From an uncultured Rhodospirillales bacterium (GTDB lineage Bacteria > Pseudomonadota > Alphaproteobacteria > Rhodospirillales > JABHCV01), in contig CALKND010000012.1 in NCBI GenBank assembly GCA_938092065.1, positions 1-64,000 of the forward strand: a DNA stretch of 64,000 nucleotides. Direction: 5' to 3'. Both the position numbers and the translations under genes were made by a program. Under the pieces are notes generated by a model that saw only the letters and a program-made list of their open reading frames with translations, searched no databases and was not told the origin of the DNA. Below are positions 5,316-50,566 of this stretch, piece by piece (the first letter of the stretch is position 1; every line of letters starts with the position of its first letter).

Positions 5316-5353
5316 GCAGAAGTCTTTTAACCACTTGATTAAAAGACTTCTGC
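5316..5353. terminator. Perfect 15-bp hairpin between convergent genes
   Basis: Arms 5316-5330 and 5339-5353 are perfect reverse complements with an 8-base loop. The inner end of each arm is AT-rich, and the hairpin lies just after the pseudoazurin stop and beyond the ABC-F stop. It probably ends transcription from both sides. Confidence 0.6.
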
Positions 5354-48143: not shown

Positions 48144-49556
48144 TCAGCCTTCCAGCATACGCCTTAGAAGTTCGACATCTTCAGCGAAGGACGTGTCGCA
48201 GTCCCGCAACTCTTCCACCTTTTTTACCGCATGCATGACTGTGGTGTGGTCACGACCCCCAAACTTACGACCAATCTCAGGTAATGATCGTGATGTTAGT
48301 TGCTTCGCTAGGTACATAGCGACTTGACGGGGGCGGGCGACAGAACGGGCCCGACGGGCAGAGTGCATGTCAGAGACCCTAATATTAAAGTGGGAAGAAA
48401 CCCGCTTCTGTATATCTTCAATTGTCACTCGCCGGTCATTCGCACGAAGAAGGTCATGGAGAACTTCTTGGGCTGTTTCGAGGGTGATATCACGACCAAC
48501 CAACTGAGAATGAGCAACAACTCGATTCAAAGCTCCTTCAAGTTCGCGCACATTTGTTGTGATCTTGTGAGCTAGAAATTCCATAATTTTTTGGGGAACT
48601 TCAACCTTAAGCTGTTCAGCCTTGGACTCAAGAATTCCCAGACGCAATTCGTATGTGGTGGCATGAATGTCTGCAACTAGGCCGCAATTTAGGCGTGATT
48701 GCAAACGCTCTTCCATGCCTTCTAAGTCTGATGGTGATTTATCTGCTGAGATAACAATCTGACGGCCCTGGTCGACCAGAGCGTTAAAAGTGTGAAAAAA
48801 CTCTTCCTGTGTCGCGCCTTTACCACCTATGAACTGAACATCATCAATCATTAAGACATCTACATTGCGAAACATTTCCTTAAAATCAACTGTGTTATGT
48901 TCTTTCAGAGCTCGGATAAAGCGATACATGAACTTTTCAGCCGACAAGTATATTACCGTGCGCTTGGGATCCTGTTGAGAGATATGCAATGCCATCGCAT
49001 GCATCAAATGAGTTTTGCCAAGGCCAACACCACCATACAAGAAAAGAGGATTGAACGTAACTGAAGGCGCGTCAGCCACGCGTCTTGCCGCTGCATAGGC
49101 AAACTCATTCGGCTTGCCAACGACAAAATTATCAAAGGAAAAACGTACGTCCAATGGTGCGCTGATTTCAGAAGTGCTATTTTCAAATGACCGGCGGCTC
49201 TCTGTTGAGGCCATGCTGACGGCAGCGGACGTAGCTGCTTCAGCGGCGGCTGCAACAGATGTTTTTTTGACCACTTCTTGTGAAGACAGCTCGGGCTGAA
49301 TCAAAATCTCAACAGAATGTACAGTGGCATCTATGGCATTCCACAAGATGCCAAGCTTGTCCAGATAATGAGCAACTGCCCAGTCGCGCATGAAACGTGT
49401 GGGGACAGAAAGCCGAGCAGCCCCATCAACAACACTGCGAATTGTCATTGGTTTGATCCAACTTTGGAAGGCAGCCTCACCAATTTCTAATCTTAAATTT
49501 TTACAAACCTCTGACCAGTTACTTTCATTGGTCTCCTCAGCTTCTTCATTTGCCAT
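48144..49556 (-). CDS. dnaA: Chromosomal replication initiator DnaA
   Basis: A 470-residue initiator. Domain I is at about 14-85 (SWIKPMTI). Domain III AAA+ has Walker A GGVGLGKTHLMHA and Walker B VLMIDDVQFIGG. Domain IV carries the DnaA-box-binding signature GGRDHTTVMHAVKKV. GGAGG stands 12 bases before the ATG. It leads the minus-strand run to gyrB. The promoter region holds a perfect 20-bp inverted repeat. I saw no good DnaA box in the 743 bases upstream apart from one with a mismatch (49840-49848). Confidence 0.98.
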   Translation of the reverse strand: MANEEAEETNESNWSEVCKNLRLEIGEAAFQSWIKPMTIRSVVDGAARLSVPTRFMRDWAVAHYLDKLGILWNAIDATVHSVEILIQPELSSQEVVKKTSVAAAAEAATSAAVSMASTESRRSFENSTSEISAPLDVRFSFDNFVVGKPNEFAYAAARRVADAPSVTFNPLFLYGGVGLGKTHLMHAMALHISQQDPKRTVIYLSAEKFMYRFIRALKEHNTVDFKEMFRNVDVLMIDDVQFIGGKGATQEEFFHTFNALVDQGRQIVISADKSPSDLEGMEERLQSRLNCGLVADIHATTYELRLGILESKAEQLKVEVPQKIMEFLAHKITTNVRELEGALNRVVAHSQLVGRDITLETAQEVLHDLLRANDRRVTIEDIQKRVSSHFNIRVSDMHSARRARSVARPRQVAMYLAKQLTSRSLPEIGRKFGGRDHTTVMHAVKKVEELRDCDTSFAEDVELLRRMLEG

Positions 49557-49606
49557 TTACGATTAATACCTCCACTAACCAACACCCAAAAAAGCTACGA
49601 TTAAAA

Positions 49607-49682
49607 TAAAATTCATCTGACAAGACGCAAACCTCTTTTTTTACAATACTTTTTGTCTATAAGTCTTGTCAGATGAATTTTA
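49607..49682 (-). promoter_or_regulatory. Likely dnaA promoter bracketed by a perfect 20-bp inverted repeat
   Basis: Arms 49607-49626 and 49663-49682 are exact reverse complements (20 of 20), separated by 36 bases. On the minus strand the distal arm contains CTGACA (49672-49667), a near-consensus -35, and TATTGT (49648-49643) follows 18 bases later as -10. The predicted start is near 49636, so the second arm lies at the very start of the transcript. Arm centres are 56 bases apart, about five helical turns. Confidence 0.65.
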
Positions 49683-50233
49683 AAAATCGTCAACTGGCTA
49701 AACTTATCTGAACATTTAAAAGCTCACCTTTTTTACCACTCGTAAAGTTCACTCTCTGCTTTAGAAGTCCCAATAGAACCACTGGTAACTTAAATTAAAA
49801 TATATGATTGGCAGGAACCTATTAGTTTTGAATTTCTATTTAGCCACAACTAATTCTACAGAACAGGAAACTAGAACTTCTTGTATTGTTTGAATATTGT
49901 TGCCATGATTTTCAAAAAGAAATTGAGTCCCCCATACTCTTTCAACTATACTGTGCAGCCTGTGCCAAATAATACTTTATTAATTCGAGTTTTTATTTAG
50001 CGAGAAGATGTCCCCCTGTAGATTATTCATTAGTTACCTAAACTATATTAGGCAAGTGCCCATTGTTATTTTGGGTGCTTGCAGGCCCCCCCCTAAACAC
50101 GGCATAATCTTAAAAACAAATTACAGAGAGATTTCTTTTGTTGCAACGTGATCTTATGGAGAACGTCTAAAATAATTTCCTTGACAGAAACATTGTCTTC
50201 GAGTCCTGAGTCACTCAATACTCGTTAAGCTTT

Positions 50234-50299: not shown

Positions 50300-50566
50300 T
50301 CAAGCAGCCATTTTTTTTACACTGGCAGACAATCGAGAAATTTTCCTAGACATAGTATTCTTGTGAAAAATTCCTTTCTGAGCTCCTCGTGCCATTATAG
50401 GCTGCGCCGCTTGCAGTGCAGCTTTAGCAGCAGCCTGATTGCCACTTTTTATCGCCTCTTCAACTTTGCGAACGAATGTACGTATTCGAGTGCGGCGGAT
50501 GCTGTTGGCTATTGTACGACGTTCAACTTGGCGGATCCGTTTCTTTGCCTGTGCATGATTAGCCAT
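50300..50566 (-). CDS. rpsT: 30S ribosomal protein S20
   Basis: An 88-residue, very basic helical protein that binds 16S rRNA. It begins [39 protein letters not shown], typical of S20, and ends in [12 protein letters not shown]. It is monocistronic, with its own strong promoter and terminator, upstream of dnaA on the same strand as in most alphaproteobacteria. Confidence 0.97.

Follow-up and report, generated by a model that had tools for sequence, protein, structure and literature searches.

A perfect 20-bp inverted repeat lies before dnaA in the window (the whole analysed stretch of 64,000 nucleotides). With a confidence just above even, we take it to be a recent, lineage-specific stem-loop inside a long transcribed dnaA leader. 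The repeat offers a clean candidate case of a long, perfect stem arising in one step in a leader, ahead of an essential gene.

Position and geometry of the inverted repeat

The repeat and the neighbouring genes are as follows.

48144–49556, minus strand: dnaA, chromosomal replication initiator (NCBIfam TIGR00362)
49607–49626, minus strand: dnaA-proximal arm TAAAATTCATCTGACAAGAC, the 3′ arm on the dnaA strand, complementary at 20/20 positions to 49663–49682
49627–49662, minus strand: AT-rich loop of 36 nt, whose dyad centre carries TATTGT on the dnaA strand and TACAAT on the opposite one
49663–49682, minus strand: dnaA-distal arm GTCTTGTCAGATGAATTTTA, the 5′ arm on the dnaA strand, which includes CTGACA
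50300–50566, minus strand: rpsT, ribosomal protein S20, the upstream neighbour of dnaA

The original prediction described two 20-base arms that are exact complements with 36 bases between them, and this was confirmed at every position. Relative to the dnaA ATG, the repeat spans −51 to −126, and its nearer arm ends 50 nt before the start codon. The spacer between rpsT and dnaA is 743 nt long with a GC content of 35%, and that of the arm is 30%. The genes dnaN, recF and gyrB are located downstream of dnaA; rpsT and then mutM are located upstream.

An extension to longer imperfect arms through the outward hexamers ACGATT and AATCGT was rejected, since its alignment score was equalled by 928 of 4000 random pairs; a shared 6-mer such as this one was found in only 92 of 4000. 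The 9-mer TACGATTAA is present twice (49558–49566 and 49596–49604, 38 bp apart) in the stretch that separates the repeat from the dnaA start.

Rarity of the repeat

The repeat had been judged most unlikely to arise by chance, and the calculations agree. When spacers of 0–119 were allowed, about 4 × 10⁻⁷ 20-bp repeats were expected in the 743-nt rpsT-dnaA spacer, and about 1 × 10⁻³ in a 2.07-Mb genome of the spacer's composition. In Markov simulations of the spacer (n = 3000), the longest arm was 14, which was attained 3 times. In 834 kb of the same genome (window included; spacers 3–150), this is the sole perfect repeat with arms of at least 17. The next-longest perfect repeats there have arms of 16, 16, 15 and 15 with loops of 3–8 nt. 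Among the perfect repeats within the window itself, the one that ranks second in length is at 5316–5353, with 15-bp arms and an 8-nt loop.

We also compared the last 150–200 nt before dnaA in 104 upstream regions, allowing repeat spacers up to 60. The longest arm (20) was that of the present repeat, and the next were 14 and 13. The 104 regions consist of our own and 103 of 109 loci, with dnaA start codons chosen by a script; they include the five relatives described below (G001–G005) as well as gammaproteobacterial and Gram-positive loci, and two contigs apparently occur twice (as L017/L093 and as L018/L034).

Distribution and origin of the repeat

Even with up to 3 mismatches allowed, no further copy of the arm was detected in the genome. 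The only other match in six family genomes was in G004 (2 mismatches); it is inside a 363-codon ORF and was taken as chance. The 800 nt upstream of dnaA were then scanned in three relatives of the same genus and two of the same family for arms of at least 9 with gaps up to 80. A long repeat before dnaA was absent in all five (5/5), and matches appeared only in G003 (a 10-bp pair with an 80-nt gap) and G004 (an 11-bp pair, about 563–601 nt upstream). No comparable hairpin was found at this place in the other 103 dnaA upstream regions, these relatives among them. Thus, the repeat is confined to this genome among those compared, and nothing shows selection on the hairpin.

According to the original prediction, absence of the repeat from close relatives would refute its proposal. 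The repeat is missing in all five, but this is a weak argument because the DnaA proteins of the same-genus relatives are only 83–84% identical to that of our genome. The DNA near the repeat gave no convincing alignment with the nearest relatives compared.

Since the repeat is a perfect copy, occurs in a single place and is absent in relatives, it probably arose by template switching. Template switching can create perfect stems in a single event, as described in PMC8794818. The hairpins treated there resemble the present case in being perfect reverse-complement repeats missing in relatives, whereas here we infer the event without an ancestral sequence.

Inverted-repeat elements of another kind were seen in the sister species G002 (L165:4461–4650, L163:8707–8847 and L161:459–552). 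Their common pieces include GCCCCTCAAGCGCCGG (in L165 and L163) and GACTTCCAGAG (in all three). The 16-mer GCCCCTCAAGCGCCGG was not found in 770 kb of our genome.

A conserved promoter-like block downstream of rpsT

Short exact words common to the spacer of our genome and those of the relatives led to a block just after rpsT.

50116–50205, minus strand: conserved promoter-like block reading towards dnaA, with GACTC (a GANTC site) at its 5′ edge, GTCAAG, −35 and −10
50146–50141 and 50123–50118, minus strand: −35 TTGCAA and −10 TAATTT of the block, 17 bp apart
50208–50212: second GACTC, just outside the block

The block was aligned across the family genomes and further loci whose DnaA is at least 66% identical. 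The aligned order is GANTC sites, GTCAAG, TTATTTT, GTTC, TTGC(A/C)A, 17 bp and TA...T. In all six family genomes (6/6), TTGCA(A/T) and TA(A/G)(A/T)TT are exactly 17 bp apart, and the gap drifts save its last bases. Among 27 anchored loci, the spacing of the TTG/TAnnnT hexamers is 17 bp in 20 and 18 in 4, and 3 have no pair at 15–19. Since the block was found by looking, its reading as −35 and −10 is after the fact.

A profile of the 27 loci matched 38 of 89 upstream regions at E ≤ 0.01, a count that includes the 27 training rows and 2 duplicates, and all 38 matches are on the dnaA strand. They are mostly 77–230 nt after rpsT (two at 380–401) and 200–731 nt before dnaA; in L037, for example, the block is at −406 from dnaA. 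Unlike this profile, whose matches contain its training rows, one built solely on the six family genomes provides an independent test. Of 28 further loci whose DnaA is at least 66% identical, it matched 21 and missed L013, L009, L023, L031, L024, L035 and L036. None of 51 more distant loci was matched (21/79 of all further loci), and no match was obtained in 79 sequences shuffled in 100-nt blocks. The 66% identity is our own cut for the order level; elsewhere, the term follows the kinship label of G006–G059. In 834 kb of our genome and 395 kb of G002, the block profile matches only at dnaA.

GANTC is the methylation site of CcrM. Within a 43-nt window at the 5′ part of the block, GANTC was present in 26 of 36 distinct loci, compared with 7% of control windows, which were taken from the downstream leader of differing composition. 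This count also took in three more distant or misplaced profile matches unchanged, and insertions have shifted some test windows out of place. In the genome we found one N6/N4 methyltransferase gene (PF01555), a putative CcrM. GANTC sites are reported in the Caulobacter dnaA promoter (PMC2217572). Mutation of a putative GANTC site is reported not to alter promoter activity significantly (PMC3885167).

Fifteen small ORFs of at least 20 codons overlap the spacer, and one of them (41 codons) overlaps the block. Its frame is open across the entire block in 7 of 27 loci, and variability is not highest at third positions. The block thus appears to be non-coding.

The conserved block is possibly the main dnaA promoter, and there may be a second promoter nearer dnaA. 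Because a 383-nt RNA is produced from the gap between rpsT and dnaA in Sinorhizobium meliloti, the block could drive a separate small RNA instead of dnaA. This RNA, sra10, was excluded as a possible ORF in the report that describes it (PMC2245857). The gene neighbourhood and orientation are identical and the gap is transcribed in S. meliloti, a likeness drawn without sequence comparison. Within the coverage of one library, no description of the conserved block was found in literature on the rpsT-dnaA gap. The combination of a conserved GANTC-bearing block and a long leader in most order-level relatives examined makes the source of dnaA transcription directly testable, and the block is arguably a more useful result than the repeat.

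Predicted stem-loop in the dnaA leader

If the distal block is the dnaA promoter, transcription would start near 50111 and the repeat would be about 430–505 nt into the leader. Both arms would then be transcribed and would pair in the RNA. The conserved upstream block makes it likely that the dnaA mRNA covers this region.

49557–50111, minus strand: predicted dnaA leader of about 555 nt, conditional on the distal block being the dnaA promoter

The leader stem-loop that we favour would therefore depend on this distal promoter. Its arms would pair as a 20-bp helix with the 36-nt loop, and the helix would end 50 nt before the ATG, with the GGAGG motif outside it. Replication template switching would have made the repeat in one step. 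If the hairpin acts at all, it would most likely act on the mRNA, through processing by a double-strand RNase, stability or leader folding around the start. Action as a protein clamp on promoter DNA is less likely.

The predicted RNA fold of the repeat has a z of −5.9, and within the full 557-nt predicted leader the pairing probability of the arms is at least 0.96 per base pair. Among the other dnaA upstream regions, z is −3 or lower in 5 of 103 (lowest −4.55), and the mean of all 104 is −0.64. A long hairpin in the leader had been the second idea of the original prediction; given the fold and the arm pairing in the predicted leader, it is a better fit than the protein clamp that had been put first.

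We also compared the leader from the block to dnaA (655–659 nt) between G001 and G002. Of 654 aligned positions, 14.7% differ, compared with 30.7% of the third codon positions of dnaA, in this single species pair. Thus, the leader is constrained in G001 and G002, though not via this hairpin, which suggests an uncharacterised function of the leader in these species.

A scan for intrinsic terminators did not report the repeat, which has a 36-nt loop and an arm of 30% GC, compared with the short GC-rich stem and loop of 3–8 of a terminator. One weak terminator-like hairpin was found between the block and the repeat (50062–50049), with 0.3 expected, and this speaks against the leader reading. In the window, Rfam gave no match above the gathering score. 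At a loose limit there were 8 matches, none of which reached gathering (best 30 bits against 90, E 0.0015), and 7 of them overlap the repeat; such matches may be what a bare hairpin gives.

Alternative explanations

The arms had been proposed to flank the dnaA promoter as two sites in inverted orientation, bound by a protein that would loop or cover the promoter. The repeat does accommodate CTGACA-18-TATTGT, and its dyad symmetry and closeness to dnaA also speak for this model. Nevertheless, we consider this model improbable. The presumed promoter is at background level, since the region contains 3 consensus matches, this one included, and shuffled sequences give 2.3 (sd 1.7). The conserved promoter-like block is about 430 bp further upstream. 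The arm centres, which had been placed about five helical turns apart, are 56 bp or 5.33 turns apart; this is a third of a turn off an integral number and would be out of phase for simple looping, although the true contact points may differ from the centres. With no second match to the arm anywhere in the genome when up to 3 mismatches are allowed, a dedicated regulator would act on a single gene. The arms had also been said to be neither a DnaA box nor a CtrA site, and this holds: no exact TTWTNCACA or TTAA-N7-TTAA is present in the 750 nt upstream of dnaA. The lack of either site in the spacer also counts against the two-site model. A replication origin was likewise rejected, since the spacer is without a DnaA box and no lasting skew reversal occurs there.

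That the repeat is a non-functional scar, a reverse-complement copy left by a template switch in a loosely constrained leader or spacer with no regulatory effect, we regard as rather unlikely, though it is the leading alternative. The repeat is the only one of its kind in 834 kb, it lies 50 nt before a tightly controlled gene, and one sister-species pair shows constraint on the leader. A scar would nevertheless account for a single-copy arm found in one genome only among those compared, for arms that are perfect and without drift, as a recent event would give, and for AT-rich surroundings that cannot be aligned. Terminal inverted repeats of a tiny mobile element, or of its remnant, are barely credible. 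The layout of 76 bp in total is like that of terminal repeats and G002 has dispersed inverted-repeat elements, but these differ in sequence, and the arm lacks the further genomic copies (up to 3 mismatches) that an element might leave. Moreover, 18 bases of the arm had no exact match in viral contigs; plasmids gave two partial matches (E 0.08 and 0.3) and phages gave none. We also give very little credence to a symmetric bidirectional promoter, in which each arm would supply a −35 (CTGACA) and the dyad centre overlapping −10s, so that RNA polymerase would leave either way. CTGACA-18-TATTGT on the dnaA strand and CTGACA-19-TACAAT on the other strand do overlap at the dyad, and the predicted starts (49636 and 49654, 7 nt past each −10) are 18 bp apart, which is the commonest start-to-start distance reported for E. 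coli bidirectional promoters (PMC12825309). However, TATTGT and TACAAT occur jointly in 6.5% of shuffled loops, the spacings are 18 and 19 where 17 is optimal, and the −10 on the dnaA strand matches at 4 of 6 positions. A version of this promoter nested in the longer dnaA leader, whose outward transcript would be antisense to the leader from the distal promoter, is a long shot to the same degree. If it were true, dnaA would be set by two competing promoters and an antisense RNA, and one inverted duplication in one lineage would have created the antisense arrangement. As for an invertible promoter (inverton), the 36-bp interval would be unusually short.

Comparison with known systems

Within the same library, and judged by titles and abstract openings, the literature on inverted repeats at dnaA gave nothing on such a repeat. 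Antisense control of dnaA is described in Bacillus subtilis (ArrA, PMC12112137); this is an unrelated bacterium, and the antisense transcript considered here is hypothetical.

For the leader stem-loop, the closest likeness is the dnaA 5′ leader of Caulobacter crescentus, which is reported to be structured and 155 nt long (PMC4489657, PMC8443254). Both cases have a long leader upstream of an alphaproteobacterial dnaA with RNA helices before the start codon. The leaders are likened without sequence comparison, and the one predicted here is about 555 nt. According to PMC8443254, most of the Caulobacter leader is dispensable for the starvation response and one stem limits translation. Thus, the leader in our genome could plausibly have a role, although the Caulobacter case does not imply one. 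The translation-limiting stem there (P5) covers the ribosome site, whereas the perfect helix described here would end 50 nt before the ATG. In S. meliloti, the small RNA EcpR1 is reported to act on the dnaA mRNA (PMC4414408), the likeness being that dnaA is controlled after transcription, at sites in its leader and start region.
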